61,199 bases of DNA from Nitrospirota bacterium (GTDB taxonomy: Bacteria; Nitrospirota; Nitrospiria; Nitrospirales; Nitrospiraceae): positions 1-61,199 of the forward strand of contig JAGWTI010000008.1 of NCBI GenBank assembly GCA_028876065.1, written 5' to 3'. A model generated the notes under the pieces. That model was given only the letters and a program-made list of their open reading frames with translations. It was not told where the DNA came from and made no database searches. The translations under genes and the position numbers were made by a program. Positions 8,347 to 38,243 of the stretch are shown in pieces (position 1 is the first letter of the stretch; each line of letters starts with the position of its first letter).

Positions 8347-10227
8347 ATGGAACGCGGACTCACCGTCGCGATCAACCTTTTATTGGCGGCGGCGCTGATC
8401 GGCTGTGCTGCGGGGCGACCAACTGGTTCGAGCCCCGCGTCACAATCATTGCCGATAGCCTCATCACTTGGGCAGGCGCGCGGAGAGGTCGAACGGTCCG
8501 TTGGTCCACAACAAGCCGCGACGCTCAAGGCCCTGGCCGAGACGGCAACAGCCTCCGCTCTGTTCACGCCGCCGCTTGTCCTGTCCACCTTGGCGAATCC
8601 CTGGCAAGGCTTCCCCGAAGTGGAACAACGTTTGTCCCGTGTCACCGAGGCAGCGTCCATGCCCCGGCCCTTGGGCCCATTACTGGTCTCGTTGGGGCGC
8701 GTGACGGAGCTTGAATCGGCAGAGCCCAGGCTTCCCGTGCCTCCGACGTCGATGCAGGTTGAAGAACAGCTCGCCTACTTGGAAGCGCTTCTAACCGAAG
8801 CCACGAGGCTTCGCATGCAGGCGGTCAGCCGGTTGACCGACGAGGAACGGCAGTTTCTGTTCGACCATGCGGCGCGGCTCGCGGAAGATTTCATGCCGCA
8901 ATTGTCGGAACAGGATGGGCCCGAACGTCGGCGGGCGCAAGCGGACCGCCGCTTCGTCGAACTGGTTGGAGATCGGCTGGACAGAACCTCGCTGCTGGCC
9001 GCGGCCCAGTTGCTCGCAAGCCTCGATGACGAGGCCTGGATGGAGCGGGTGCAGCCGGCCTTCACGGAAACTCCGGCCCTGGCTCACCCGGTGCCGGGCA
9101 TCACCGGGTCGGTGCTCCTGTTCAAGCAGACTCCGTCGGGATTGATTATCGTCGGAGGACCGGGCCCCAACACCTATGACCTGCTCCAACCGATCGCCCT
9201 GCTGCTGGACCTTGGCGGAGACGATCGCTATCGAGGGACCGTGGCCGCGCCCGCAACCGTCACACAGGGTGTCAGCGTCCTGTTGGACCTTGACGGCAAC
9301 GACATCTATGACGCCCGGCCGCTCGGCCTGGCAACCGGACGACTGGGCGTGGGGCTCTTGGTGGATCGCAGGGGGAATGACCAGTATCACCTGGCGCCGG
9401 GCAGCGGCGGGACCGGCCTGGCGGGAATCGGGATTCTGGAGGATCGAGAAGGGGAGGACCGCTACATCGGCTCCCGTCTGACACAGGGCGCATCAATAGG
9501 CGGATTGGGCCTGCTGGTCGATCTCGCCGGCGACGATACCCACAACAGCTTCGGCTATGCCATCGGCTTCGGGGGACCGCTGGGAGCGGGCGCCCTCATC
9601 GACGTGGCCGGCCACGACCGGTATCAGTGCGGGGATCGGTACCCAAGCCGGTACAACGAGCAGGAGGCCCCCCAGGCCAAGCCTGGTGACGCACGGTTCG
9701 AATACGAATGCTTCGGGATGGGGGCGGGCGTCGGCCAGCGGCTCATGCCCACGCTCAGCCCTTCCACGCCGGCAGGCCTCGCCGGAGGCCTCGGCCTGAT
9801 CCTGGATCTGGCGGGCAACGATCAGTCGCGCAGCGCCAACTTCTCGCAAGGCGTCGGCTACTTCTTTGGAGCCGGCATCAAACTGGACCTGGACGGCGAC
9901 GATGAGTCCGTGGCGGCACGCTACGGTCAGGGCGCGGCCGCCCATTTCGGCGTCGGCCTGTTTGTCGATGCCGCCGGCAAGGACTCCTATGGTTCCACCG
10001 GGCCCTTCTACAACGGAGCGGCGGCCTGGGATCGGAGCGTCGCCCTCTTCGTGGATGCAGGAGAAGACGACGATCGGTACGATTTCCAACAGTCCACCGG
10101 ATTGGGCATCGCCGACCACCGGGCCTGGAGTCTGTTTTTCGATGCAGGCGGGAAAAACAGCTACGCCGTCCGGAGCGGCAAGGGAACCGCCGGCGACGGC
10201 AGCGTGGGCACGTTCATCGTCCCGTGA
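8347..10227 (+). CDS. lipoprotein with eleven 26-27-residue Asp/Gly repeats
   Basis: 626 residues from the ATG at 8347, one base after the preceding stop codon. A lipobox (ALIGC, Cys 20) predicts lipid anchoring. Residues about 40-280 are mostly helical and not recognised. From residue about 285 to the end there are eleven tandem repeats, consensus hydrophobic-x-x-D-x-x-G-x-D-x-Y followed by about 15 residues closing in G-x-G. The first four copies are exactly 26 residues, later ones 27, and copy 6 carries an insertion of about 40 residues including Cys. The Asp-Gly-Asp spacing resembles calcium-binding turns, but the period is not the nine-residue RTX period. A right-handed beta-helix or other solenoid on the cell surface or periplasmic face is likely. 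Function unknown. Confidence 0.8.
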   Translation: MERGLTVAINLLLAAALIGCAAGRPTGSSPASQSLPIASSLGQARGEVERSVGPQQAATLKALAETATASALFTPPLVLSTLANPWQGFPEVEQRLSRVTEAASMPRPLGPLLVSLGRVTELESAEPRLPVPPTSMQVEEQLAYLEALLTEATRLRMQAVSRLTDEERQFLFDHAARLAEDFMPQLSEQDGPERRRAQADRRFVELVGDRLDRTSLLAAAQLLASLDDEAWMERVQPAFTETPALAHPVPGITGSVLLFKQTPSGLIIVGGPGPNTYDLLQPIALLLDLGGDDRYRGTVAAPATVTQGVSVLLDLDGNDIYDARPLGLATGRLGVGLLVDRRGNDQYHLAPGSGGTGLAGIGILEDREGEDRYIGSRLTQGASIGGLGLLVDLAGDDTHNSFGYAIGFGGPLGAGALIDVAGHDRYQCGDRYPSRYNEQEAPQAKPGDARFEYECFGMGAGVGQRLMPTLSPSTPAGLAGGLGLILDLAGNDQSRSANFSQGVGYFFGAGIKLDLDGDDESVAARYGQGAAAHFGVGLFVDAAGKDSYGSTGPFYNGAAAWDRSVALFVDAGEDDDRYDFQQSTGLGIADHRAWSLFFDAGGKNSYAVRSGKGTAGDGSVGTFIVP

Positions 10228-10345
10228 GCGGTCCGCTCAAGTTTCCCCTTTCTCTCGCCGATATCCCTTCAGCTCTTGCTGTCTCCTGCGAGAGCCGGAC
10301 ACAGAAACCAACACCAACGAACACTGACGCGAGAGTGAAACCCCG

Positions 10346-10987
10346 ATGCTGACGGCCATGGGCGATGTGATGCGGCACTGTTACGCCAAGGGGTGGATCA
10401 CCACCAGGGACGGCAACGTCAGCCTGTGCAAGAAGGGGGGCAAGTACCTCTACATCACCCCGTCCGGGCTCAGGAAAACGATCGTGCATCCGGAACAGAT
10501 CGTCAAGCTGGAGATCGTCGCGGACCCGGAGACGTTGGAGCGCCGGCCGCGCGTGCTGGAACAGCAGCGGCCCTCGGGCGAGCTCTGGATGCACTGGAAC
10601 ATCCAATGCCATACCCCACGCACGAGAGCGGTGGTGCACATTCATCCGACTCATGTGGTTGCGGCGATCTATCGCGGCTTCGATCTGCAGAAAATTTGCG
10701 CGGACTTCCCGGAGATTTCGCGGTACACGAAGGTGGGCCCCTCGGTGCCCCCGCTGCCGGCTCTCTCCCGCGAGTTCGCCGACGCGACGGCGGATGCTCT
10801 GGGCGTGCACCGGGACGGGTCGCTGGACTACGACATTGTCGGCCAGGCCAACCACGGAGTCTGCTCCGTGGGGCCCGATCCTTGGTCGGCCTACGAGCAC
10901 ATCGAGCGGCTCGACCATATCTGCGAGATTGTGCTGAAGAGCGGGGTCAGCCCCGGAGTCGGGATGTTCGACGCAGTCTTACGCTGA
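10346..10987 (+). CDS. class II aldolase/adducin-family protein
   Basis: 213 residues with the class II aldolase head domain: GWITTRDGNVSLC near the N terminus, the phosphate loop TPSGLRK, the metal-binding HIHPTH and a further conserved His in QANHGVCSVG. Such enzymes include fuculose- and ribulose-phosphate aldolases or epimerases and methylthioribulose-1-phosphate dehydratase. The zinc ligands in HIHPTH appear intact, so catalysis is plausible; the substrate cannot be told from sequence. Monocistronic, 118 bp after the repeat lipoprotein. Confidence 0.85.
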   Translation: MLTAMGDVMRHCYAKGWITTRDGNVSLCKKGGKYLYITPSGLRKTIVHPEQIVKLEIVADPETLERRPRVLEQQRPSGELWMHWNIQCHTPRTRAVVHIHPTHVVAAIYRGFDLQKICADFPEISRYTKVGPSVPPLPALSREFADATADALGVHRDGSLDYDIVGQANHGVCSVGPDPWSAYEHIERLDHICEIVLKSGVSPGVGMFDAVLR

Positions 10988-11040
10988 CAAGAGGCAACAG
11001 CAATCCACCAACCCTGAACCGATCATCGGCATCTGATCGG

Positions 11041-11106
11041 TCAGGCCGTGACCCCACCCCGAACCACCATCCAGCTAAACAGGACCACCAGCGAGAATGT
11101 AAGCAT
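11041..11106 (-). CDS. candidate 21-residue membrane peptide
   Basis: The frame encodes MLTFSLVVLFSWMVVRGGV plus two residues (21 in all). It is almost wholly a single hydrophobic helix with a positive charge near the C-terminal end. An AAGGAGGG Shine-Dalgarno sequence lies 9 bp before the ATG, the strongest type seen in this window, which argues that it is translated. A TATAAT hexamer lies about 120 bp upstream. Its size and pattern recall KdpF- or CydX-like accessory peptides, but no partner gene is adjacent. Confidence 0.5.
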   Translation of the reverse strand: MLTFSLVVLFSWMVVRGGVTA

Positions 11107-11304
11107 GTTGGCGTCCCTCCTTCGTACCCTTGGATTTCCTCGTTCCGTTCAATTGCTTGCCCCTTACTTGAGCAAGATGGGTACCATCTTGGAAGCGAAT
11201 CCGATTTCATATCGTAAGATATTGAAATTATAACATAGTTTACAATTTATCCCGGCGCAAAATAGTCTGCCAAAAATGGCCATGTGGCACAAAGTTGAGT
11301 CCTA

Positions 11305-11328
11305 GAAGACGCCTTTGCGGCGTTTTTC
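11305..11328 (+). terminator. rho-independent terminator-like hairpin
   Basis: The stem ACGCC/GGCGT (11309-11313 and 11319-11323) with flanking A and a run of five T (11323-11327) is a classic terminator read on the plus strand. The nearest plus-strand gene ends over 300 bp earlier, so it may end a short untranslated RNA from the AT-rich stretch. Confidence 0.6.
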
Positions 11329-11479
11329 ACACACTTGGCCGAGGAGCTGACAAACCCACACGGAGACCGGTAAGCTAGCCATCGGGACTTGTTCTTTCCT
11401 GCGTAAGGAGGACATGGAACCGGCGACTAAACGGTGTGCGGATCGAGTCACCGTTTCCTTTGCCGAAAGGAGAAGCCCC

Positions 11480-11980
11480 ATGGAACGACGCACCTTGCTC
11501 AAAACGCTCGCCGTCTTGGGCCTTGGCTTGCTCGCCAAAGGACTGGCCCCGAAACCGACCGACGCGAAGGAGGCTGTAATGGGCTATGAAGTGGTCAAGA
11601 CCGATGAGGAATGGAAGGCGATTCTGACGCCGGAACAGTACTAAGTCCTGCGTCACGAAGGGACCGAGCCCCCGTTTAAAAACCCCTACCACGATAACCA
11701 TGCCAAGGGCATCTACAACTGCGCCGGTTGCGACCTGCCCTTGTTTTCCTCCGAGCACAAGTACGACAGCGGCACCGGTTGGCCCAGCTTCTGGCAGCCG
11801 ATCAACGACAAGGCCGTCGAGACCAAAACGGACTATAAACTGATCCTGCCCAGGACCGAGGTCCATTGCCGACGCTGCGGCGGACACTTGGGCCATGTGT
11901 TCGAGGATGGGCCGAAGCCGACCGGCTTGCGCTACTGCATGAACAGCGCCGCCATGAAATTCGTGCCGGCCAAGGCCTAG
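11480..11980 (+). pseudogene. msrB: Tat-exported methionine sulfoxide reductase B, interrupted by in-frame TAA
   Basis: Reading from the ATG at 11480 (AAAGGAG site) gives a twin-arginine-like leader (ERRTLLK plus a hydrophobic stretch), then the MsrB N terminus YEVVKTDEEWKAILTPEQY. A TAA follows at 11642-11644. The same frame continues as [16 protein letters not shown] and through the whole catalytic domain: zinc pairs CAGC and CRRC, the GWPSFW motif, HLGHVF and the catalytic Cys in RYCMNS. A single base change from AAA, CAA or GAA would explain it. There is no ATG or GTG restart before the zinc cysteines. It is either a recent nonsense mutation or a sequence error; TAA recoding is unlikely. 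Confidence 0.85.
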
Positions 11981-12067
11981 GTCACTTTGTTCGACGACAA
12001 GTGGAGCCCCTCGCCTGAAAAGGGCGTGGGCCTCGAGTGCCCCCCTCTGCGACAAGCGGCTGACGGG

Positions 12068-12096
12068 TTGACAGGACCGCCGAGTCCCCGTACAAC
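12068..12096 (+). promoter_or_regulatory. promoter of the beta-lactamase-fold lipoprotein
   Basis: Consensus TTGACA (12068-12073), a 17 bp spacer and TACAAC (12091-12096). A GGGGGG stretch serves as the ribosome site before the ATG at 12133. Confidence 0.6.
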
Positions 12097-12132
12097 TCAC
12101 ACTCAGGGTGATCGAGAGCCAGGGGGGCGCAC

Positions 12133-13329
12133 ATGTCCTTCACCACAACGATCGTGAGACGACAGACCTGGGCCCTCTTGGGCGTCATGCTGGCCCTGAC
12201 GCTGGGCGGCTGCGCGTCGGGGGACAACATCAAGACGGTCAAGCCGCCCGCCACGTTCAGCCCGCAGCAAGAAGCGCAACTGCTGAAAACCGTCCTGGAC
12301 GCCTTGGAGAAAGGCGGCATTCCCGGCGCCGTCGTGGGGGTCTGGGCGCCGGATCAAGGCACCTGGGTGGAAGCCTTCGGTCAGGCCGACCTGGCCGAGC
12401 ACAAATCCATGACCGTGGACCACAAGTTTCGCATCGGCAGCATCACCAAAACCGCCACCGCCGCGATCGTGCTGCAATTGGCCGGCGAGGGCGTGATCGA
12501 CCTCGATCAAACCATCGAAAAGTACGACACGACATACGATCTCAAGATTCCCAACGCCAAAGAGATCACGATCCGTCAGTTGCTGAACCACACCAGCGGT
12601 CTCTTCAGCTATACCGACGATCCGGCGTTGGACGCGGTCAGTTACGCCAACCTGCTCCTTTATTGGACGCCGCAGGAATTGATCAAGTACGCCGTCTCCC
12701 ACCGGGACACAACCCCACCCGGCAAGGAATACCATTACTCCAACACCGGCTATGCCCTGCTCGGTCTGATCATCGAGGAGGAGACCAAGCACCGGCTGGA
12801 GGAAGAGATGGACCGTCGGATCATTAAGAAGCTCGGCCTCAAGAACACCTCGTTTCCCACGCTGCCCAATACGACCGAACCGCACGCCAACGGATATATG
12901 AGCAACGCCGATCTCTTGCGCCTGTCCTTCAACCTGCGTGGAAACAAGACCGCCGAGCTGGTGGACGTGACCGCCTTCAATCCCTCCTGGGCTTGGGCTG
13001 CCGGCGCCATGATCTCGAACGTCAACGATCTCAAGGCCTATGCCAAGGCCATTGGGACCGGCTCGTTGGTGGGCAAGAAGATGCAGGCGGAGCAACTGAA
13101 AATGATGCCCGTCGTGCCGGGGTCGGACATGAAATATGGGCTGGGCCTCGCTGAGTACAAGGGATGGCTAGGGCATCGCGGCGAAGTGCCGGGCTACGAC
13201 ATCAGCATGTATTACTCGCCGGAACTCGACGCCACCTTCGTGGTGTGCCTGAACCGGACCCCCAACAGCGTCCAATCCGATGCGCTGCTCTTCGGTCTGG
13301 CCAAAATCGTATACCCGAAGAAATTTTAG
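12133..13329 (+). CDS. beta-lactamase-fold serine hydrolase lipoprotein
   Basis: 398 residues. The lipobox LGGC near residue 27 predicts a lipoprotein. The serine beta-lactamase/DD-peptidase (class C, PBP4-like) motifs are SITK (Ser nucleophile and Lys), the second motif YSNTGY and the third region HRGEVPGY, where His replaces the Lys of KTG. This pattern is common in esterases and D-aminopeptidase-like hydrolases and does not by itself imply beta-lactam resistance. A paralogue lies at 23712. Its end overlaps by 4 bp the convergent DUF4112 gene. Confidence 0.85.
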   Translation: MSFTTTIVRRQTWALLGVMLALTLGGCASGDNIKTVKPPATFSPQQEAQLLKTVLDALEKGGIPGAVVGVWAPDQGTWVEAFGQADLAEHKSMTVDHKFRIGSITKTATAAIVLQLAGEGVIDLDQTIEKYDTTYDLKIPNAKEITIRQLLNHTSGLFSYTDDPALDAVSYANLLLYWTPQELIKYAVSHRDTTPPGKEYHYSNTGYALLGLIIEEETKHRLEEEMDRRIIKKLGLKNTSFPTLPNTTEPHANGYMSNADLLRLSFNLRGNKTAELVDVTAFNPSWAWAAGAMISNVNDLKAYAKAIGTGSLVGKKMQAEQLKMMPVVPGSDMKYGLGLAEYKGWLGHRGEVPGYDISMYYSPELDATFVVCLNRTPNSVQSDALLFGLAKIVYPKKF

Positions 13330-13847
13330 GGAGCCAGGGATAGTCGCATCGCATTCCACAGCCCCATCACCAGCCAGAGGACGGCCAGGATCGCACCGAT
13401 CAGCAGGAGCAGGGTGCCGGCCAGGAGGCCGACCACGAAGGCCCAGTCCGTGAGGGCGGCCGCGCGAGGAGCCCCGCTCGCGCGGCGCAGCAAGGCGGCA
13501 TTGCGGCAGTTGCTCTGAAACCAGACCGAGAAGGCATCGCCCAGCCCCGGCACCGCACCCACCACCCCGTTCAGCAGCAGGTTCAGGCACATGCGGGCCA
13601 GCGTGATCCTTGGCGCCCGCAGCCGCACGGCCATCACCAGGATCGCCGCGCCGATCAAGCCGGCCAGCAGGTCCCCGGCCCCGGGGATCAGCCCGATCAG
13701 CGGATCGAGGCCGAGGTAGAGGTTCGTCCCCGGAATCCGGATCGCGTGGTCCAGAATCTTCGCCAACAGCTCCGCCGATTCGCAGAGCGCCTCGGCTTCG
13801 GGATCGACGCCGGAGCCATCCGACCGACTCTCATGCCGCTGATGCAT
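13326..13847 (-). CDS. DUF4112 membrane protein
   Basis: 173 residues from the ATG at 13847; a TTG further upstream (13880) has no advantage. The DUF4112 signature is clear: DPLIGLIPGAGDLLAGLIGA and a second half-repeat VVGAVPGLGDAFSVWFQSN, then a C-terminal pair of transmembrane helices (LLAGTLLLLIGAILAVLWLV). The family is of unknown function and sits in the inner membrane. It overlaps the convergent hydrolase by 4 bp. Confidence 0.85.
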   Translation of the reverse strand: MHQRHESRSDGSGVDPEAEALCESAELLAKILDHAIRIPGTNLYLGLDPLIGLIPGAGDLLAGLIGAAILVMAVRLRAPRITLARMCLNLLLNGVVGAVPGLGDAFSVWFQSNCRNAALLRRASGAPRAAALTDWAFVVGLLAGTLLLLIGAILAVLWLVMGLWNAMRLSLAP

Positions 13848-13909
13848 AGAGGTTCGCCCTGTTTCGCCTCCGCCGTCCAAAACTCATTCTACGATCGCAT
13901 GCCTGCTTC

Positions 13910-13938
13910 TTGTACCGCCATACCCGCTATGGCACAAT
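13910..13938 (+). promoter_or_regulatory. promoter of the exported protein at 13985
   Basis: TTGTAC (13910-13915), 17 bp spacer, CACAAT (13933-13938). The leader would be about 40 nt. Confidence 0.5.
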
Positions 13939-13984
13939 GCTTCGACCGCTGAGCGGCACACGTGACCAGCTGATGGAGGCTCAG

Positions 13985-14365
13985 ATGTTCGCTCTAGCAG
14001 TCCTAGCCGCGAGCTTGTATGTCTGCCCCGGCGGTGGCTACGTGGACCATCCCGAACCAGGATGCAAACCGTTTACTGAATCTCAACAGCACGGGTTCAG
14101 CACCAAGGAAGACTCCCCCGCCTCTCACACCGCACCGGCCGAATCACGCTCCAGCCCCATCGAACATCCCAGCGCCGCACCCCCGCCGCAGCCGGCGGAC
14201 AAAGAGCCGTCACCCGCTTCATCCGAGCTGTGCGACCGTTATCGCGAGTGGGTGACCCTCAGCTTGAAACAAAGCGGGGGCGGGTTGACTCCGCAGGAAG
14301 TGAACCGGTGGAACGCCTTGCGCGGAGTCTTCGGCACCAGTAGCGCCCCGCCAGTGAAATGCTGA
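13985..14365 (+). CDS. small exported Pro/Ser-rich protein
   Basis: 126 residues from the ATG at 13985 with GGAGG 5 bp upstream. A short signal peptide (MFALAVLAASLYV) leads into a Cys-containing segment CPGGGYVDHPEPGCKPF, then a low-complexity Pro/Ser/Glu linker and a C-terminal helical part with two further Cys. The paired Cys suggest a small disulfide-stabilised periplasmic protein. No known family recognised. Confidence 0.65.
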   Translation: MFALAVLAASLYVCPGGGYVDHPEPGCKPFTESQQHGFSTKEDSPASHTAPAESRSSPIEHPSAAPPPQPADKEPSPASSELCDRYREWVTLSLKQSGGGLTPQEVNRWNALRGVFGTSSAPPVKC

Positions 14366-14613
14366 CGCAGTCCTCGCCACACCGATCACCCCAGTTCTCA
14401 CCCACACACGCCGCGCTTCCTGTCGGATGGCCGCACGAGTGGGCGCAGGCAGAGGGCCCTTGTTCCCTATCTACGTGATCGCTTCATGACGACGAATCCT
14501 CTAGCTCGCGACCAGAAAGGGCAAGATCGCTCGGTTGGCGGATTGTAGCAGGCTTGTGGTGTCGCGAGCGGCTTGTGGCGAGGCGAGGAGGGCGACGTCT
14601 CGGGCCAGACGGT

Positions 14614-15279
14614 TTAGCGGCTGTGCTCGGTCATAAGCCACCCGGCGACGGACACTCGTTTATGATCCCCGCCCAAAGGATCCACCCGGCACACGCGATG
14701 GAATCGGGGAACGGTAAAGAGGACCAACGAGCCGGGCAGCGGCGCAATGCAATGGGTGATGGACAGCCGGTGCCCGTTCATGCCATCGCCAGCACCGCCC
14801 GCATAGATGATCAATTCGCCTCCCCAGTCCGGCTGCCATTCATCGTGCAGGTAGGTGACGAGGGCAAGACGTCGCAGGAGCGACGGGCCATGTCCCGCAT
14901 TCGCCGGGTCGGCGGTTTGCACCGTATCGTCGTGCGTCAGCAGGCAATCGCCGGCGGCATAGGAATAATAACTGAAACTGACGTGTCGCCGCCGGATACT
15001 CGGAAACGATTCGATGTAACGCTCGATGCACGGCAGGGACAACCGCTCCAGCAACCGTCCCGCTTCCGGTTGACTCATTGCCGCCTTGCCCCAGTTGCCG
15101 CAGTCCGGAAACGTCGCCCGAACGTGCGGCATCTCGGACAGCGCCCGCCAGGTTGCATGCCGCCCTGCCTGCAATAGGAGCTTGCGTTCCGCGTCCGTCC
15201 AGAAATGTTCGATGACCAGCACCGGATCTCGATGGAACGAAAACGTATCGGCATCGAACTCGCTCCAGGATACATTCAT
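14614..15279 (-). CDS. 2OG-Fe(II) dioxygenase
   Basis: 221 residues. The double-stranded beta-helix metal site is visible: H-x-D in LLTHDDT (about residue 115), the distal His in PRFHRV (about 192) and the 2-oxoglutarate Arg in HKRVSVAGW. The strands SFSYYSYAAGDCL and LVLFTVP flank them. This resembles prolyl-4-hydroxylase-type (P4Hc/Ofd1) proteins that hydroxylate a protein or small molecule using O2 and 2-oxoglutarate. The substrate is unknown and no neighbouring gene suggests one. Confidence 0.82.
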   Translation of the reverse strand: MNVSWSEFDADTFSFHRDPVLVIEHFWTDAERKLLLQAGRHATWRALSEMPHVRATFPDCGNWGKAAMSQPEAGRLLERLSLPCIERYIESFPSIRRRHVSFSYYSYAAGDCLLTHDDTVQTADPANAGHGPSLLRRLALVTYLHDEWQPDWGGELIIYAGGAGDGMNGHRLSITHCIAPLPGSLVLFTVPRFHRVCRVDPLGGDHKRVSVAGWLMTEHSR

Positions 15280-28479: not shown

Positions 28480-29139
28480 TCAGTAGCCGACAAGGGGGAG
28501 CAGGGGATGGTCGGTCAAGGCCTCATACGCCTGACTGATCGAGCCGACCGGGGAGACTTGCACGAGGAACGGGGTGAGCCAGTCGCTATCGGCGACATCC
28601 ATCTCATCCGGCACCAAGACCCGGTGCATATGCGCATCGCCGGCCGCGACGACTTTCAACGGCACGGCACCCACAGGCGCGATGTGTCCATCCGGCGTCA
28701 CGGCGCCGGTCATGACCCGATCGGAGGGAATGAATTCGCCTTTGGCCAGCGCGACCACGGCCAGGGCCACCATGGCGGATAAGCTGTCGCCGTAAATGGT
28801 CACGCCCGTATAGGGCACGGAGAGAATGACGCTCCAGGAATCCGTCGAGAGGCCGGCGACTTTCGCCACGCGCCGGATCGCCTGCTCGACGGCGGTTTGA
28901 GCCATCTGGGAGAAGCGGCCGGGAAACGCTTTGAATTGGACGGCCAGGCCTTGGTGGTCGGATCGTTCGTCGAAGGCTAACACAAGGTTCGCGACGGTGC
29001 CGATGGGTTGTTGGTCCATCATCACGCCGAGGATGGGGATGAGCTGTTCCCGTTGCCCGCTGAAGGCCTGGGCAAGCTGAACCTGGGCCAGCGTCAGCAT
29101 CACGGCCAGCGCCAGGGCCGCGACCGGCGATCCGCGCAC
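28480..29139 (-). CDS. exported S16 (Lon-type) peptidase domain protein
   Basis: 219 residues from a GTG at 29139, chosen because it opens into a signal peptide (PVAALALAVMLTLAQVQLAQA); longer readings overlap the neighbour at 29192. The rest is a Lon proteolytic domain: YGDSLSAMVALAVVALAKG carries the nucleophile Ser121, and VTPDGHIAPVGAVPLKVVAA carries Lys162, 41 residues later as in Lon. No AAA+ or substrate-binding domain is present. Export and lack of an ATPase imply an ATP-independent periplasmic peptidase. The start is uncertain. Confidence 0.7.
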   Translation of the reverse strand: MRGSPVAALALAVMLTLAQVQLAQAFSGQREQLIPILGVMMDQQPIGTVANLVLAFDERSDHQGLAVQFKAFPGRFSQMAQTAVEQAIRRVAKVAGLSTDSWSVILSVPYTGVTIYGDSLSAMVALAVVALAKGEFIPSDRVMTGAVTPDGHIAPVGAVPLKVVAAGDAHMHRVLVPDEMDVADSDWLTPFLVQVSPVGSISQAYEALTDHPLLPLVGY

Positions 29140-29191
29140 CGAGCCAAGCCGGGGCGCGGTTCCCGCATCCTCTTGAAGCCTGGTTACCCCA

Positions 29192-29443
29192 TCAGTCGCC
29201 CTCCGGCGAGACCAGACACTCGTCCGGGCTGCCTTCCCACTCCCGAGCCGGCCGATACTCCAACAACGGATGGGTCGGCTGATCATCCTGCCGTTTCCGA
29301 AGCGCCGCCGACAACCCGTCATAGATCGCGCGGGCGGACTGCGACCAATCCAGGTTGAACGGCTGTCCTTGGAACGCCGCCTCCGCCGCCTTCAGCTCGT
29401 CATGGGTCAGGGGTCGTGGTCGTTTGCAAGAGTTCATTGCCAT
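29192..29443 (-). CDS. small protein of unknown function
   Basis: 83 residues from the ATG at 29443 (GGGAG site 8 bp upstream). It is charged and soluble, with a helical middle LTHDELKAAEAAFQG and DWSQSARAIYDGLSAAL. No family recognised. It precedes the S16 gene by about 50 bp, so the two may form one transcript. Confidence 0.6.
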   Translation of the reverse strand: MAMNSCKRPRPLTHDELKAAEAAFQGQPFNLDWSQSARAIYDGLSAALRKRQDDQPTHPLLEYRPAREWEGSPDECLVSPEGD

Positions 29444-30825: not shown

Positions 30826-30948
30826 CAGGATGTTGAAAACGCCGCCCAGCTTCGTGCTCACTTCGCTCAAGGCCTCAACGTATCAAAACTGTACGCCTCA
30901 GCCTTTCGCTTGCTGCGGCCTCGCTGGACGATCGTTTTGAACATCCTG
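30826..30948. repeat. palindromic intergenic element, copy 3
   Basis: 123 bp starting on the base after the stop codon of the flavoprotein. Outer arms CAGGATGTTGAAAACG (30826-30841) and its near-complement (30933-30948) match at 15 of 16 positions. The interior corresponds to copies 4 and 5 in the opposite orientation (CCTCAACGTA, GTACGCCTCAG, TGCGGCCTCG). Confidence 0.8.
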
Positions 30949-30992
30949 TCGGGACCGGCCAGGGCTACCCGCAGGAACTTGCGAAGAAAGTG

Positions 30993-31047: not shown

Positions 31048-32796
31048 ATGAGCGACCATCGAGACCCGAACGAACGAGATAAAAAGAAGGCCGGCGGGAA
31101 AGAGCAGGCGGCGGGGCAGGGCTCATCCTCGCCGAACGACCCCCTGGTCTTGATCGACGACTGTCTGGCCTCCCTGCCGGACGACGATCCGCGGCAGAAG
31201 ATCCTCTACAAATTGCGTCATCTGATCCTGCAGGAAGGGGCGGCCCATCAGCAGCGGGAGGTGGAATTCAAGAAGCTGAGCGAGGTGGTGGGCAAGCTGA
31301 CCGCGCCGGCCAACCGAATCGGCACCTTGTTGGAGCTGCCCGCGGAAGGCCTGGCCCGTATCGTCGTGGGCGGGGCCGAGTACTACACGAACGTGGACCC
31401 GCGCGTAGCGCCGGCCGAGCTCAAGATCGGCACGCAAATCCTGGTGAACGAAGCCTATGCTCTGATCAAGACGCTCGGTTACGACCGGAACGGCCCGGTG
31501 CTCCGGGTGGCCGACAGCTTGCCGGACGGGCGCATCCGCTTCGAGCAGGAGCCGGGTCGCCAGGCTTTGATCCTCCAACGCGGGAGCGACCTGGTCGGAG
31601 TGGAACTCAAGGCCGGCGACGAGGTGCGGATCGACCCCAGCCACCGCATCGCGATCGAGCGTTTGGAGGACAAACAAGCGGACCGCCACCTGCTGGACGA
31701 AGTGCCGACCGTCACCTGGGAGCAGATCGGCGGGCAGAAGGCCGCGATCGAGGCCATCCGCAAAGCCATCGAATATCCCCTGCTCCACGGCAAGACCTTC
31801 GAGCAGTTCAAGTTCACCCAGCCCAAGGGCTTCCTCCTCTACGGCCCCCCCGGCTGCGGCAAGACCCTGATCGGCCAGGCCGCAGCGGCAAGCCTGTCCA
31901 AGCTGGTGGGCGACTCTCCTGAAGCACAGGCTTCCTCGGACAGGCCCAAGGTCACCGGCGGCTCCTTCCTGCACGTGAAGGGGCCGGAGATTCTGAACAT
32001 GTGGCTGGGCGAATCGGAACGGATCGTCCGCGATCTCTTCACCCAGGCCCGCGCGCGCCGCAAGGCCGGACTGCTGCCGTTCATCTTCATCGACGAAGCC
32101 GAGTCCATCCTGGGCACCCGCCGCGCCATGCGCTCCTTCAACATCAACAATACGCTCGTGCCGATGTTCTGCTCGGAGATGGACGGCATCGAGTCGTTGC
32201 GCGACGTGGTGATCATCCTGGCCTCCAACCGGCCGGACTTGATCGACCCGGCGGTCCTGCGGCCGGGACGGATCGACCGCAAGATCAAGGTGAGCCGCCC
32301 CGGCCGGGAGGAATCCGCGGAGATCCTGAAGGTCTACCTCACAGACGACTTGCCGCTGGATCAATCGCTGCTGGCCGCGCACAGGGGCGACCGAGCGGCT
32401 ACCTGCCAGGCTTTGGTGACCAAGGCTGTAGAAGCGATCTTCAGCAAGACCGACCAGAACCGGCTCCTCTCCGTGCGGCTCCGCAGCGGCCAGAACAAGG
32501 TGCTCTATCGGGCCGATCTGGTCAGCGGCGCCATCCTGGCTTCCATCGTCCAGCGGGCCAAGGAACGGGCCATTGAGAGAGCGATCGGCACCGACGGGAG
32601 CAACGCCGGATTGACCGACGACGATCTGATGACCTCGATCAACGCCGAATTCCGCGAAGGGGAAATGCTCCCACCGGATGACGCGGCGGAGGAGTGGCTC
32701 AAGCTGCTGGACCACCACCCGGAACAAGTGGTGGGGATTTCCTCGTTCCGCAAGGGCCGGCCGGCGGAAGAACGGCTGATCGGCCAAATCATCTAG
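31048..32796 (+). CDS. proteasome-associated AAA+ ATPase (ARC/Mpa)
   Basis: 582 residues, with GGAGG 5 bp upstream of the ATG. ARC/Mpa forms a hexamer that binds Pup-type tags through its N-terminal coiled coil and feeds the substrate to the 20S core. Seen here: a charged N-terminal region, a likely coiled coil near residues 60-85 (REVEFKKLSEVVGKL), tandem OB-like domains (about 90-220), and the AAA+ module with GPPGCGKT, FIFIDEAE, the Arg-containing VLRPGRIDR and a C-terminal helical domain. The extreme C terminus is LIGQII instead of the GQYL that docks into the core in Mycobacterium. dop follows 2 bp after the stop codon. First gene of the proteasome locus. Confidence 0.93.
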   Translation: MSDHRDPNERDKKKAGGKEQAAGQGSSSPNDPLVLIDDCLASLPDDDPRQKILYKLRHLILQEGAAHQQREVEFKKLSEVVGKLTAPANRIGTLLELPAEGLARIVVGGAEYYTNVDPRVAPAELKIGTQILVNEAYALIKTLGYDRNGPVLRVADSLPDGRIRFEQEPGRQALILQRGSDLVGVELKAGDEVRIDPSHRIAIERLEDKQADRHLLDEVPTVTWEQIGGQKAAIEAIRKAIEYPLLHGKTFEQFKFTQPKGFLLYGPPGCGKTLIGQAAAASLSKLVGDSPEAQASSDRPKVTGGSFLHVKGPEILNMWLGESERIVRDLFTQARARRKAGLLPFIFIDEAESILGTRRAMRSFNINNTLVPMFCSEMDGIESLRDVVIILASNRPDLIDPAVLRPGRIDRKIKVSRPGREESAEILKVYLTDDLPLDQSLLAAHRGDRAATCQALVTKAVEAIFSKTDQNRLLSVRLRSGQNKVLYRADLVSGAILASIVQRAKERAIERAIGTDGSNAGLTDDDLMTSINAEFREGEMLPPDDAAEEWLKLLDHHPEQVVGISSFRKGRPAEERLIGQII

Positions 32797-32798
32797 CC

Positions 32799-34352
32799 AT
32801 GCGCTTGTTCGGCCTCGAAACCGAGTACGGCATCACGCGCGAAGATCTGGACCAGGTGGACCCGGTCGTGGAATCCATGGACCTGGTGCGGGCCTACCTG
32901 CCTGTCCTGAGCCGCGTCGAAGGGACCGATGCCTTCGAGCGAACCTGGGACTATCAGGGGGAAGACCCGCATGAAGACGCCCGGGGGTTCCGCGTCTCCG
33001 GCCTGCAGCAGGACAAGGAAGAAGACGAGTTCGCCAAACAGGACGCCCACCGGCCCTTCTCGTTCTATGAGATGAAGAGCGACCTGGTCCTGCCCAACGG
33101 CGCTCGGTTCTATAACGACCATACCCATCCCGAATACTCCACGCCCGAATGCAGGACCCTGCGCGACCTGATCGCCCACGACCGGGCCGGCGAGCGGATC
33201 GTGCAGCGGGCGGCGGATCGGCGCAACCGGGCCCTGGGCGGCCCGCAGGTGCAACTGTACAAGAACAACACCGACTTTCACGGACACAGCTACGGCTGCC
33301 ACGACAACTATCTCCTCCGGCGATCCGTTCCGTTCCCATCGCTCGTCCAAGGCCTCCTGCCGTTTCTGGTCAGCCGCCAGATCATCGCGGGAGCCGGCAA
33401 GGTGGGCATCGAGGCGCAGGAGGGTGGATTCCGGCCGGGACAGTACCAGCTCTCCCAGCGCGCGGACTTCATGGAGACCGAGTTGAGCGTGGACACGATG
33501 CACAACCGGCCGATCCTCAACACTCGCGACGAGCCACACGCGGACCGGACGAAGTATCGGCGGCTCCACCTGATCGTGGGCGACGCGAACATGTGCGAGT
33601 ACGCCACGGCCTTGAAGGTGGGGACGACCAGACTGGTCCTGGACCTGATCGAACGGGGCTTGGCGCCGGCTGTGGAGCTGGACGAGCCTGTGGCCGCCAT
33701 CAAAGCCATCTCGCATGACCCGGACCTGAAGGCCCTCGTCCGCCGGAAGGGCGGCGGCACGATCTCCGGGCTGGAGATCCAACACCTCTACCAGCAAACA
33801 GCGCAGCACCACCTCGCCGGTTCGGACGAGGAAACCGACTGGGTGATCCGCGAGTGGGGCGAGACCTTGCGGCTGCTACAGAGCGATCGGGGCCGACTCG
33901 TGGGCCGGCTGGACTGGGTCACCAAGCTCTGGCTCCTGGACACGTTCATGGAGGCCGAGCATGTGAGCTGGGACGATCCCTGGTTGGCCAGCCTGGACCT
34001 GGAATATCATAATGTGAGTCCAGCGCGGGGCCTCTTTCTCGGCCTCGAGGCCGAGGGCAAGACGAGCCGGCTTGCAACCGAGGCGGAAATCGAGCAAGCT
34101 CTGCGCGAAGGACCGGCGGACACCAGGGGCGGGATCAGGGGGCTCTGCGTCCGGCGGTTTCCGGACCAAGTCAAGTCGGTGCAGTGGGAGCAGGTGCGGT
34201 TCAAGGGGCTGCTGAAGCCGCACACCCTCGACATGGGCGACTTGTTCGAGCCGGATCGAGTGAAGGAGTTGGAGCGGATTTTGGCCAACGCCGCCGCTCC
34301 GTCGGACGCCTTGACGGAGTGGCATGAACGAAAGGACCGCCGACATGCATGA
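32799..34352 (+). CDS. dop: depupylase/deamidase Dop homologue
   Basis: 517 residues from the ATG at 32799, 2 bp after the ATPase stop codon. A glutamine-synthetase-like fold of the Pup ligase/Dop family: LFGLETEYGI at the start (ATP/Mg binding Glu), and the catalytic Asp in FYNDHTHPEYSTPEC. A long charged insertion in the segment between these (about residues 40-90) corresponds to the Dop loop and distinguishes it from PafA at 36750. It would remove the UBact tag from proteins; deamidation is not needed since the tag here already ends in Glu. Its end overlaps the UBact gene. Confidence 0.9.
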   Translation: MRLFGLETEYGITREDLDQVDPVVESMDLVRAYLPVLSRVEGTDAFERTWDYQGEDPHEDARGFRVSGLQQDKEEDEFAKQDAHRPFSFYEMKSDLVLPNGARFYNDHTHPEYSTPECRTLRDLIAHDRAGERIVQRAADRRNRALGGPQVQLYKNNTDFHGHSYGCHDNYLLRRSVPFPSLVQGLLPFLVSRQIIAGAGKVGIEAQEGGFRPGQYQLSQRADFMETELSVDTMHNRPILNTRDEPHADRTKYRRLHLIVGDANMCEYATALKVGTTRLVLDLIERGLAPAVELDEPVAAIKAISHDPDLKALVRRKGGGTISGLEIQHLYQQTAQHHLAGSDEETDWVIREWGETLRLLQSDRGRLVGRLDWVTKLWLLDTFMEAEHVSWDDPWLASLDLEYHNVSPARGLFLGLEAEGKTSRLATEAEIEQALREGPADTRGGIRGLCVRRFPDQVKSVQWEQVRFKGLLKPHTLDMGDLFEPDRVKELERILANAAAPSDALTEWHERKDRRHA

Positions 34353-34539
34353 CCCTATAAATCTCGACCGCCGCGAACGGCCCTTCGACCCAATGCCCAA
34401 ACCGACCAGCCCGGGCGAAGAGGGAGGAGGTCCGCGACGACCCGACACAGGCTCGCCGGACAAGGACAACCTCCTGAAGCGGATGCGCAAGGTGGACCCG
34501 AAACAGGCGGAGCGGTACCGACAACGAACAGGAGAGTGA
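34345..34539 (+). CDS. ubiquitin-like protein tag UBact (Pup homologue)
   Basis: 64 residues from the ATG at 34345, with AAAGGA 8 bp upstream; an ATG at 34324 would add seven. It is disordered and charged with the sequence blocks PFDPMPKPTSPGEEGGGP, RRPDTGSPDKDNLLKRMRKV and DPKQAERYRQRTGE. The RYRQRTGE end is typical of UBact, the Pup relative of Gram-negative bacteria. The C-terminal Glu is genetically encoded, so PafA can activate its gamma-carboxylate directly. It overlaps the end of dop by 8 bp. The identification rests on sequence pattern and on its place between dop and prcB. Confidence 0.88.
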   Translation: MHDPINLDRRERPFDPMPKPTSPGEEGGGPRRPDTGSPDKDNLLKRMRKVDPKQAERYRQRTGE

Positions 34540-34551
34540 CGCTCGATTCCT

Positions 34552-34577
34552 CCGTTCGCCCTGAGCTTGTCGAAGGG
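34552..34577. repeat. palindromic CTGAGCTTGTCGAAGG repeat
   Basis: A copy of the GTTCGCCCTGAGCTTGTCGA motif found also at 27440 and 34930; here it lies between UBact and the inserted GIY-YIG gene. Confidence 0.6.
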
Positions 34578-34596
34578 AGCTTGTGAAAGACGGATT

Positions 34597-34911
34597 ATGG
34601 GATTTTGGGTGTATATCCTTCAATGTGCAGATGGCTCTTACTATACGGGACATACTGATGACCTTGAGAAGCGCATTACGGAACACAAATCAGGTCAATT
34701 GGGTGGATATACAGCAACCCGCCTTCCGGTGAATCTGATCTATTCCGAGGAATTTCACACGCGCGAACAGACCTTGGCTTGTGAGCGTCAGATAAAAGGT
34801 TGGAGTCGTAAGAAGAAAGAGGCGATGATTCGGGGAGACTGGGCAGAGGTATCTCGTTTGGCTCGTACACGATCAAGGCAACCCGTTCAGCCTTCGACAA
34901 ACCTGCCCTGA
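34597..34911 (+). CDS. GIY-YIG endonuclease-domain protein inserted in the proteasome locus
   Basis: 104 residues from the ATG at 34597. A single UvrC/URI-type GIY-YIG domain: VYILQCADGSYYTGHTDDL (the GIY and YIG motifs appear as VYI and YTG), DLEKRITEHKSG, and the helix ACERQIKGWSRKKKEAMI containing the conserved Glu. The codons and composition are visibly more AT-rich than the neighbours. It sits between UBact and prcB, flanked by palindromic CTGAGC-type repeats, which suggests a recent insertion of a mobile or stray gene. Such small GIY-YIG proteins are common in bacterial genomes and of unknown role. Confidence 0.85.
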   Translation: MGFWVYILQCADGSYYTGHTDDLEKRITEHKSGQLGGYTATRLPVNLIYSEEFHTREQTLACERQIKGWSRKKKEAMIRGDWAEVSRLARTRSRQPVQPSTNLP

Positions 34912-34929
34912 GACGATCGGCTGTTTCCT

Positions 34930-34985
34930 TTGAGAACCGTCCTTCGACGGACTCAGGACGAACGGCCGATTTGGCGAAAGGCTCA
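34930..34985. repeat. palindromic CTTCGACGGACTCAGGACG repeat
   Basis: CGTCCTTCGACGGACTCAGG and the following GGACGAACGG form the same motif as at 34552 in the other orientation, followed by a GGCTCAGGATGAGC inverted repeat. It lies just before prcB. Confidence 0.55.
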
Positions 34986-35022
34986 GGATGAGCGGTTTGA
35001 TGAGCGGTTTATGGAGACAACG

Positions 35023-35796
35023 ATGGGTATGCAGGGCGATTTTTTGCAGCTCCTGAAGGAGCAGGGTTATCAGATCGGCACCTCGGTCCCGGCCGGCACG
35101 GAGGTGGAGATCACGCGCGGCACCACGATCCTGGCCATGAAATACCGGGACGGGGTCCTGGTGGCCGGCGACCGGCGGGCCACGGCCGGCAACATGGTCA
35201 TGTACGACCGGACGGACAAAGTCCTGGAACTGGACCGTCATAGCGTCATGGCGATTGCCGGCGTCCCCGCCACCGCCTACGAAATGGTGCGGGTGCTGGA
35301 ACATTCCTTCAAATACTACCGCCGCACACAGCTCCAGGAACTCAGTTTCGAGGGCAAGCTACGGGCCGTTTCGAAGCTGCTGAAGGACAACGTGGCCGCG
35401 GCGCTGGCCGGCACAGGCGCGGTGGCGCCGATCTTCGCCGGCTATGACTTCGAACAGAGCTCGGCGAAGATTTTCTTCTACGACATTCTGGGGGCCGAAT
35501 TCGAAGGGGTGGAATATGCCGTGTCCGGCTCCGGCTCGCCGACGATCCGCGGCATCCTGCACTACCTGAACACCTGGAACGGGCAACCCCTGGCGGCTCT
35601 GCCCGAGGAAGAGGCGACCATCCAGGCCCTGCGCCTCCTCACCTGCGCCGCCGAGTTCGATTCGGCCACCGGCGGAGTCAACCACGAGGCCAACCTCTAC
35701 CCGGTCGTCAAACTCATCACCGAACGCGGCGTCCGGACGGTTCCGGACGGGACGCTGAAACCGCTGTTCGAATCCAAGGTGACCCGCCATGTATGA
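35023..35796 (+). CDS. prcB: 20S proteasome beta subunit PrcB
   Basis: 257 residues from the ATG at 35023, with GGAG 6 bp upstream; alternative ATGs at 35011 and 35029 are in frame. A propeptide of about 33 residues ends at ITRG and is removed to expose the catalytic Thr34 in TTILAMKYRDG. The following GVLVAGDRRATAG supplies the conserved Asp and Lys/Arg residues, and AVSGSGSPTIRGIL matches the Ser-Gly-Ser motif of active beta subunits. Seven subunits form each inner ring and do the proteolysis. It overlaps prcA by 8 bp. Confidence 0.95.
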   Translation: MGMQGDFLQLLKEQGYQIGTSVPAGTEVEITRGTTILAMKYRDGVLVAGDRRATAGNMVMYDRTDKVLELDRHSVMAIAGVPATAYEMVRVLEHSFKYYRRTQLQELSFEGKLRAVSKLLKDNVAAALAGTGAVAPIFAGYDFEQSSAKIFFYDILGAEFEGVEYAVSGSGSPTIRGILHYLNTWNGQPLAALPEEEATIQALRLLTCAAEFDSATGGVNHEANLYPVVKLITERGVRTVPDGTLKPLFESKVTRHV

Positions 35797-36604
35797 AGAA
35801 CCCTATCGCTGGGTCGAGGCAGTCGGCAATCGCCGCCAGTATCTCGACGAGCAGCTCAAGCAAGGGAGCCCGGTCGTCGCCCTGTCCTATGCGGACGGCA
35901 CCTTGCTCCTGACCGTCAGCCGCGGCACGCCCAAACTCTACGAAATCTACGACCGCATCGCGCTGGGCGGCGTCGGCCACCCGGCCGATCTGGAAAAGCT
36001 CCGCTTCAGCCTGCTCGAAATGGCCCATCTGGAGGGCTTCAACCGCTCGCCCTCGGACGTGACCGGCGCGCGTATGATGAAACTCGGGTTGGCGCCGATC
36101 ATCAAGCAGGCCTTCGAGGAGATTTTCAAAGCGCCCTTCATCGTCAAGATCCTCCTGGCGGAATTGAGCCTGAAACCGGGCAAGGACACGTTCCTCACCA
36201 TCGACTACGACGGAACGTTCGAGGAGACCTCCGGCTGCGCCGTGCTGGCCGCCACCAAGGCCATTCAGGCGCGCATGGTCGCCTATCTGAAGCAGGCCGG
36301 GCATGCGCCGCCCCTGTCGTTGGACGCAGCGCTGGCTCTGGCAGCCAAGGCCTGGGCCCTTGGATCCCTGGCGCAAGCGGCTGAAACGGAGGCCGACCGC
36401 AAGGACGAGAAAGAATCCGCCACACCCGTCGCGCAGGAGCCGGACGACGCAGCACTGCTGGCGCACTTGCGGGACACACTCGCCGATAAGACCCTCGAAG
36501 GCGCCGTCCTGGAACGACAGGCTCCCGGCTCGTCGAAATATCGGGCGCTCACGGGAGAGGAGTTGGCCTCCCTTGTTCCGAAGTCCGCGCAGGCCCCGGC
36601 CTAA
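35789..36604 (+). CDS. prcA: 20S proteasome alpha subunit PrcA
   Basis: 271 residues; the start overlaps prcB by 8 bp, which implies translational coupling. An alpha-type subunit: MYEEPYRWVEAVGNRRQYL precedes the core, with SPVVALSYADGTLLLTV, the KLYEIYDRIALGGVGHPADLE segment and the middle strands of the fold. There is no catalytic Thr. The C-terminal tail (residues about 195-271) is charged and Ala/Glu-rich and longer than in a minimal subunit. The alpha rings gate the chamber and contact the ATPase. Confidence 0.95.
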   Translation: MYEEPYRWVEAVGNRRQYLDEQLKQGSPVVALSYADGTLLLTVSRGTPKLYEIYDRIALGGVGHPADLEKLRFSLLEMAHLEGFNRSPSDVTGARMMKLGLAPIIKQAFEEIFKAPFIVKILLAELSLKPGKDTFLTIDYDGTFEETSGCAVLAATKAIQARMVAYLKQAGHAPPLSLDAALALAAKAWALGSLAQAAETEADRKDEKESATPVAQEPDDAALLAHLRDTLADKTLEGAVLERQAPGSSKYRALTGEELASLVPKSAQAPA

Positions 36605-36620
36605 AACCTCGATCTCTTAA

Positions 36621-36744
36621 CAGGATGCTCAAAAAGGCTATCCAACGAGGCCGCAGGGAGCGACGCCCCCGAGGCGTACTGAGGAAGTACGTTGAGGGGA
36701 GCAAGCGACCGAGAACAAAGTTGGGAGCCTTTTTCAGCATCGTG
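36621..36744. repeat. palindromic intergenic element, copy 4
   Basis: About 124 bp between prcA and pafA. Outer arms CAGGATGCTCAAAAAGGCT (36621-36639) and its near-complement (36726-36744) match at 17 of 19 positions. The interior (CCAACGAGGCCGCAG, GAGGCGTACT, AAGTACGTTGAGG, AACAAAGTTGGG) closely matches copy 5. Its right end is 5 bp from the pafA start codon. Confidence 0.85.
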
Positions 36745-36749
36745 CCATC

Positions 36750-38243
36750 ATGCTGAACAGGATATTCGGTCTTGAAACTGAATATGGGCTGCTGATCAAC
36801 AAGGACCGGCCCGACCATTCCCCTTCCTGGGTCGCCCATCAAATCCGCGATTACTTGTTCCACAAACAGCAGCGCGGAATCCTGGACCTGCACCACCGCG
36901 GCCATGACGAGCCGCCCGGCAACGGGGGCTTCCTCACCAACGCCGGCCGCATCTATCTGGACATGGGGCACCTGGAATATGCTTCGCCGGAATGTGGGTC
37001 CCTGGCGGACCTCGTCGCCTCAGACCGGGCCGGCGATCAGCTCATCCAGCAGGCGATCGAGGCCATGGGGCTCGGCGACCAGGTCTCGCTGATCAAGAAC
37101 AACATCGACCATGAGACGGACGCCACCTTCGGCTCGCATGAAAACTACCTGGTCACCCGCCGGTTTCCCTTTTCGCGCCGGGGTCTCGGCCTCCTGGTGC
37201 CGTTCCTGATCACCCGCCAGATCTTCACCGGGGCGGGACGGATCGGCTCCGCCGATACGCCGGACGGTTGGATTCCGGTGGAACAGCTGCTCATCCGCCG
37301 GCCGGGGCTGCGCAACGCGGGTGACCGGCCGTCGCTGCCCTTCCAGATTTCCCAGCGGGCCGACCACATCGTCAACGACTTCTTCGAGTGGGTGCAGCAG
37401 AACCGGGCCATCGTGAACACGCGCGACGAGCCGTTGGCCGACCCGAACCAATTCCGCCGCATCCACCTGTTGTTGGGCGATTCCAACCTGGCCGAAACGG
37501 CGACCGCCTTGAAGCTGGGGACGACCGGGCTGGTGCTGCAGCTGATCGAAGAGGGCCATGCGCCAGCCGGATTCGACTTCGAGGACCCGGTGGAGACGCT
37601 GAAAGAAATTTCCCGGGACCAGGACTTCTCCTGGCTGGTCGCGCTACGCTCGGGCAAAACCATCTCGGCGATCGACATCCAGGAGCAATTCCTCGCCGCA
37701 GCCAGGAAACAGTACCGGGGGCAGGACGAGGAGACCGACTGGGTGTTGGACCAGTGGGAAACCGTCCTCACGGACCTGCGCGACGACTACCGCAAGCTGG
37801 TCGGCCGCGTGGACTGGGCCTCCAAGCTCTGGCTCCTGGACTCGTTCCGGGAAGCGGAGAAGGTGGAGTGGGACGATCCCTGGCTGAAAAGCCTGGACCT
37901 GGAATACCACAACCTTCATCAGGGCAAGGGGCTCTACTTCGGCCTGCTGGAGGAAGGGAAGGTCCCGCGCGTGACCACCGACAAGGCGGTGGAACTGGCC
38001 CAGACGCAGCCGCCGCGCAACACCAGAGCGTTCGGACGAGGCGAGTTGGTCCGACACCTGCTGGAGCATGGCGCGCCGGAGGCCGACGCGCAGGAAGAGG
38101 ACGGCCGGCCGGGGGGGCGATTCTTCCCCGATTATGTGATCAACTGGTCGATCTTCCAGGTCCGGGGCCGCCCGCCCTTCCCCATGCCGGACCCCTTCAA
38201 GACCTACGCGCAGGAAGTCCGCAGCCACCTGGCCGGCCACTAA
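36750..38243 (+). CDS. pafA: Pup/UBact ligase PafA
   Basis: 497 residues. A glutamine-synthetase-like ligase that joins the C-terminal Glu of the tag to lysines of target proteins using ATP. FGLETEYGL gives the metal-binding Glu. The catalytic Asp lies in IYLDMGHLEYASPEC. The conserved blocks NNIDHETDATFGSHENYL, QISQRADHIVNDF, RIHLLLGDSNLAETATALKLG and SLDLEYHNL follow. It lacks the long loop present in Dop. Its ATG has no Shine-Dalgarno sequence and is only 5 bp from the palindromic element, unlike the tightly coupled prcB-prcA pair. Confidence 0.93.
   Translation: MLNRIFGLETEYGLLINKDRPDHSPSWVAHQIRDYLFHKQQRGILDLHHRGHDEPPGNGGFLTNAGRIYLDMGHLEYASPECGSLADLVASDRAGDQLIQQAIEAMGLGDQVSLIKNNIDHETDATFGSHENYLVTRRFPFSRRGLGLLVPFLITRQIFTGAGRIGSADTPDGWIPVEQLLIRRPGLRNAGDRPSLPFQISQRADHIVNDFFEWVQQNRAIVNTRDEPLADPNQFRRIHLLLGDSNLAETATALKLGTTGLVLQLIEEGHAPAGFDFEDPVETLKEISRDQDFSWLVALRSGKTISAIDIQEQFLAAARKQYRGQDEETDWVLDQWETVLTDLRDDYRKLVGRVDWASKLWLLDSFREAEKVEWDDPWLKSLDLEYHNLHQGKGLYFGLLEEGKVPRVTTDKAVELAQTQPPRNTRAFGRGELVRHLLEHGAPEADAQEEDGRPGGRFFPDYVINWSIFQVRGRPPFPMPDPFKTYAQEVRSHLAGH

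Follow-up and report, generated by a model that had tools for sequence, protein, structure and literature searches.

The analysed window is a contig of 61,199 nucleotides (C109, accession JAGWTI010000008.1) from a Nitrospirota genome that comprises 3.41 Mb in 158 contigs and is 100% complete with 1.42% contamination. Between positions 31048 and 38243 the + strand carries, in this order, genes for a proteasomal ATPase (mpa/arc, 31048-32796, 582 aa; PF17758, PF16450 and PF00004), a homologue of the depupylase/deamidase Dop (32799-34352, 517 aa; PF03136, 559 bits), a tag of 64 residues ending in RTGE (ubact, 34345-34539), a GIY-YIG endonuclease-like open reading frame (34597-34911, 104 aa; PF01541, 66 bits), the 20S β subunit PrcB (35023-35796; PF00227, 92 bits), a divergent 20S α subunit PrcA (35789-36604, 271 aa; PF00227, 25.9 bits; 1q5q, E 1.5e-11) and, beyond an intergenic gap of 145 nucleotides with an imperfect palindromic repeat (36605-36749), an enzyme in the pafA position (36750-38243, 497 aa; PF03136, 438 bits) that is proposed to be the UBact ligase. 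A preceding sequence-only reading of this DNA had named the genes of the conjugation and proteasome system in the same order. Each of them was found on the + strand and matched its own family, but the GIY-YIG reading frame and the prcA-pafA gap had gone unmentioned. That reading had also taken the host for a diderm, which is supported by the presence of one LptD gene in the genome. In comparisons with congeners, dN/dS lies between 0.05 and 0.12 for each of the six UBact-locus genes, which indicates that the locus is maintained by purifying selection. Dop, PafA, PrcB, PrcA and Mpa of the UBact locus all score below the NCBIfam equivalog cut-offs, which were presumably set on actinobacterial members of these families.

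The tag is a member of the UBact family. It exceeds the curated cut-offs of both UBact models (PF20513, 78.4 versus 27.8 bits; NF033388, 81 versus 35 bits), whereas the Pup model PF05639 does not match it in a search of the genome, the sole match there being a gene on a different contig (C136). This profile comparison had been put forward as a check in the sequence-only reading and bears out its assignment of the tag. The protein ends in TGE and not in GGE or GGQ, and it shows the combination by which UBact is recognized, namely a C-terminus of the (R)TGE/TGQ type and a locus in common with homologues of Dop/PafA, the 20S subunits and Mpa. Its start at 34345 is backed by a DNA alignment with two congeners and by a conserved upstream GAAAGGA; an alternative start at 34324, which would yield 71 residues, is ruled out by the same alignment. 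As the tag already ends in glutamate, this species has no need for deamidation, just as had been proposed. The further claim that Dop acts only as a recycler can be upheld, if at all, for this species alone: the tag ends in RTGQ in 18 of 72 close UBact sequences, so that Dop in the UBact family probably retains deamidase activity. A search of solved structures did not reveal any structural relative of UBact, and to our knowledge no biochemistry has been published for it. A second, weak UBact match in one genome (G175) looks like a chance match.

The same genome encodes a second, Pup-based set. Its pup gene, the C136 gene mentioned above (L002, 3868-4065; 77 bits), ends in VQKGGE and stands alone between hppA, encoding a proton-pumping pyrophosphatase, and recJ, both neighbours being named by reading their sequences. 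The other components are clustered on contig C70 in the order mpa (8477-10246), dop (10268-11749), prcB (11880-12647), prcA (12650-13333) and pafA (13440-14816), and pup is not part of this cluster. Altogether, the genome contains four Pup_ligase genes, two on C70 and two in the window, and five proteasome-subunit genes. C70 and the window account for two of these each, and the fifth, on C140, we take to be HslV. The genes on C70 and C136 exhibit dN/dS values of 0.03-0.05. The sequence-only reading had decided for the UBact lineage rather than actinobacterial Pup. A UBact-type locus in a diderm is indeed what is found, but a Pup gene and a second full set reside in the same genome. Within the genome, proteins of one set share 31-46% identity with those of the other and fall into separate clades; a recent duplication of the Pup set is thereby ruled out as the source of the UBact set.

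This dual arrangement is widespread. Of the 61 Nitrospirales genomes surveyed, 57 have Pup and 29 have UBact. Four Pup_ligase genes are present in 25 of the 29 genomes with UBact, and two in 26 of the 32 genomes without it. The sole UBact-bearing genome for which a Pup match was not obtained is 77% complete, yet contains four ligase-family genes. Since both sets occur within single-contig genomes (G004, G015, G032 and G034), a binning error is excluded as the origin of the second set. The named UBact genomes that were searched, N. moscoviensis included, possess one Pup each (12/12). In eight single- or large-contig genomes the distance from pup to the Pup-side dop amounts to between 46 kb and 1.4 Mb. 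A phylum-wide draw yielded UBact in 43 of 118 genomes; in one family of this draw (f16) the UBact tags are more divergent and most members also have Pup. A single contig of 2,559,538 bases (G089; L221) contains a UBact locus and is not matched by the Pup model, possibly because its Pup is too divergent. In another genome (G167; L231, 5193-9427), which belongs to a different family of the same class as our host, an in-frame collapse has turned prcB and prcA into a chimera of 180 residues and the -II tail of Mpa is lost, while the genes for tag, Dop and PafA are intact. One of two relatives of G167 has an intact locus and the contig of the other is incomplete; this single observation may reflect a real loss of the proteasome or an assembly error.

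The proteasome core encoded in the window has the features of bacterial 20S particles. From the start at 35023, PrcB consists of a propeptide followed by Thr34, which aligns with Thr1 of mature β subunits and is accompanied by Asp17 and Lys33 (mature numbering), and PrcA is a homologue of the α subunit. UBact-side PrcA retains the pocket lysine of the α ring (KLYEIYD), as does its Pup-side counterpart, so that mixed docking may occur. UBact-side Mpa comprises the OB and AAA domains characteristic of Mpa/ARC and a coiled coil that is assigned by position and sequence only. Its closest solved relative is Mpa (5kwa, E 2e-91), and its score with TIGR03689 is 435 bits, below the cut-off of 504.75. 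The charge of the coiled coil is alike in both sets (about -1.2 and -1.3), and charge complementarity in this region was therefore dismissed as a distinguishing feature.

The C-terminal tail distinguishes the two ATPases. UBact-side Mpa of the host ends in GQII and thus lacks the penultimate Tyr of the QYL/HbYX docking motif, whereas its Pup-side counterpart in the host terminates in GHYF. Pup-side tails read GHY[LFV] in 21 of 21 cases. The UBact-side proteins from named loci end in II without exception (69/69), and a further sample, which partly overlaps with the former, contains -II in 25 of 26 tails and -IV in the remaining one. In other families of the phylum the UBact-side tail is -IE or -VI. 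A penultimate Tyr is absent from every UBact-side Mpa tail read, and one metagenome-assembled genome is devoid of the tail altogether. GHY[LFV] resembles the QYL motif by which mycobacterial Mpa docks and which is required for gate opening (PMC8142254; PMC4254994). According to Barandun et al. (2012; PMC3511204), organisms that have no 20S genes possess ATPases without this motif, and the UBact-side tail could therefore also mean that docking does not take place. The retention of the 20S genes at the UBact locus and the conservation of the tail favour a different mode of docking. We know of no description of a Tyr-less docking tail for bacterial proteasomes.

The two Pup_ligase family enzymes of the locus were compared at the positions by which Hecht et al. 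(PMC7947786) converted Dop into a ligase. In the alignment, the Asp of the NDHTHPEY motif in UBact-side Dop corresponds to the catalytic residue Asp94 of Acidothermus Dop, and the Asp of LDMGHLEY in the pafA-position enzyme (Asp71) corresponds to Asp64 of C. glutamicum PafA. The catalytic residues that the sequence-only reading had recognized, Thr34 of PrcB among them, are thus substantiated by alignment. UBact-side Dop is Dop-like at the discriminating positions, including the Dop-loop and an α-loop of the Dop type, and scores slightly below the cut-off of TIGR03688 (473 versus 492 bits). The pafA-position enzyme contains neither the Val/Thr-Gly insertion after the catalytic Asp nor the SSATTRS-type α-loop of PafA. 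Its α-loop, HIVNDFFEWVQQNR, is unique to it. It has PafA-like Phe and Ala residues at two positions (F54 and A72), a short loop remnant (EPPGNGG) in place of the full Dop-loop and a TIGR03686 score of 332 bits, below the cut-off of 551, and its best matches in the PDB are Dop proteins. Judged from these traits, the enzyme is a separate subfamily. Its earlier designation as PafA agrees with position, family and catalytic Asp but not with the missing α-loop signature, so that its role as a ligase is putative. AlphaFold2 models of the two enzymes reached mean pLDDT values of 44 and 52, which are too low to tell whether the α-loop forms a helix or a loop.

In a tree of the Dop/PafA family, the Dop and pafA-position enzymes of the UBact and of the Pup sets each form a clade. 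UBact-side Dop groups with the UBact-side pafA-position enzyme, and this pair is set apart from the Pup pair with support values of 95/94, long branches being flagged. The tree thus favours an independent origin of the Dop/PafA split in the UBact set, but a single clade of all Dops is not rejected by the AU test (p-AU 0.24). Should the topology with a UBact pair and a Pup pair hold, ligases and hydrolases would have separated twice independently within one enzyme family.

Gene content and order, their conservation under purifying selection, the co-occurrence of the two sets and the patterns of charge and tail lead us to regard it as reasonably probable that a UBact conjugation-proteasome system and a separate Pup-proteasome system operate in parallel within one cell. 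As far as sequence can tell, the UBact tag would be made ready for use with its C-terminal Glu already in place. The pafA-position enzyme would then activate this residue with ATP and join it to lysines of substrate proteins, and UBact-side Dop would remove and recycle the tag and, in relatives with a Gln-ended tag, also deamidate it. Tagged proteins would be captured and unfolded by the ring of UBact-side Mpa and fed into a 20S core for degradation, the receiving core presumably being formed by the PrcA and PrcB proteins encoded next to this ATPase. The cluster on C70, together with pup on C136, would provide the same route for Pup. The C-terminal 30 residues of the tags are opposite in net charge, which ranges from +3 to +5 in every UBact sequence read and from -3 to -8 in every Pup sequence read. 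This contrast in the half of the tag that binds the enzymes, together with the different ATPase tails, which may dock on different α rings, suggests that cross-talk between the pathways is limited. Whether this amounts to two insulated pathways that share neither tag nor ligase, ATPase or 20S particle, with docking via a Tyr-less -II (or -IE) tail and a ligase α-loop unlike that of PafA, is a more tentative proposition, to which we give somewhat less than an even chance.

A less strict separation is conceivable, in which either ligase, ATPase or 20S core would accept both tags and the duplicate would add capacity or act as a stress-specific isoform. The enzymes of the two sets are, after all, homologous with 31-46% identity, both α rings have kept the pocket lysine and many relatives live without UBact. 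We nevertheless consider such shared machinery unlikely, given the opposite charges of the tags, the fixed difference between the ATPase tails and the deep separation of the sets in the Dop/PafA tree. It is quite improbable that UBact serves a non-degradative, regulatory purpose with UBact-side Mpa acting as an undocked unfoldase, as in actinobacteria without proteasome. The docking Tyr is indeed missing throughout and G167 has kept tag, dop, pafA and mpa alongside a prcB/prcA chimera and with the ATPase tail gone, but nearly all loci have kept prcA and a prcB that encodes the catalytic triad, both at low dN/dS, and conservation of the -II tail itself suggests a role in binding.

The absence of the PafA insertion and α-loop and the closeness to Dop structures could also be taken to mean that the locus has a second hydrolase in the pafA position and that UBact is ligated by Pup-side PafA. 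We deem this highly improbable. The enzyme has kept the pafA position and a conserved signature of its own in all sampled lineages, it is PafA-like at F54 and A72 without a full Dop-loop, and the basic C-terminus of UBact is unlike the acidic helix of Pup. For parallel UBact and Pup pathways, Nitrospira offers the advantage that both tags are present in one cell, such that specificity of ligases for their tags and docking of ATPases to cores can be compared side by side. Carriers of the UBact locus include the cultured N. moscoviensis and Ca. N. defluvii, and the fixed difference in the ATPase tails allows a direct test of the choice that the 20S core makes between ATPases.

UBact was reportedly named in 2017 by Lehmann, Udasin, Livneh and Ciechanover as a system of Gram-negative bacteria. 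The locus described here is alike in its PF20513/NF033388 tag, in the linkage with proteasome, Dop/PafA and Mpa homologues and in its Nitrospirota host; documented here in addition are the co-resident Pup, the divergence in tail and charge and the non-canonical PafA α-loop. With the Pup-proteasome system of Mycobacterium it shares the order dop-tag-prcB-prcA-pafA with mpa upstream as well as the catalytic Asp and Thr residues, but its tag belongs to another family, is different in charge and ends in RTGE instead of GGQ/GGE, and the UBact-side ATPase tail lacks the QYL motif. Two complete and very different systems, one of them with a tag lacking the terminal GGE, have been reported for Leptospirillum ferrooxidans, where they are designated L1 and L2 (Barandun et al., 2012; PMC3511204). 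This case resembles ours in that two full copies with sequences far apart reside in one diderm. It concerns one species with identical gene context, whereas in Nitrospirales the Pup-side locus is devoid of pup and the arrangement extends over many genera. A paper on Nitrospira with both systems was not found in a search that covered mainly openly accessible literature, and the 2017 UBact paper may mention such a case. The UBact system and dual systems in Leptospirillum are hence already known, and the dual arrangement is common in Nitrospira. What appears to be new is how general this arrangement is among Nitrospirales, along with the relocated pup gene, two types of tail, the reversal of charge and the unusual α-loop of the putative ligase.

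The GIY-YIG reading frame probably does not belong to the UBact system. It lies in a cassette of about 0.48 kb between ubact and prcB (34540-35010) that has TTCGACAAGCTCAGG-like repeats on both sides. The cassette is present in one of three congeners (G001) and missing from G003, where only a few bases separate ubact from prcB. Between G000 and G001, dS of the GIY-YIG gene is 0.036 versus 0.3-0.7 in the flanking genes, i.e. about ten times lower, with a dN/dS of 0.89. The low dS indicates recent movement or exchange, and the cassette accordingly looks mobile or recently exchanged. Its insertion could disturb co-transcription of the UBact locus. The palindromic repeat in the prcA-pafA gap (36620-36744) has imperfect arms, CAGGATGCTCAAAAAGGCT and AGCCTTTTTCAGCATCGTG, and an inverted relative of it is located upstream of mpa (30873-30949). 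A few genes upstream of the UBact locus, the - strand encodes a protein with a protease domain resembling the C-terminal part of Lon but without the Lon ATPase (28483-29322).
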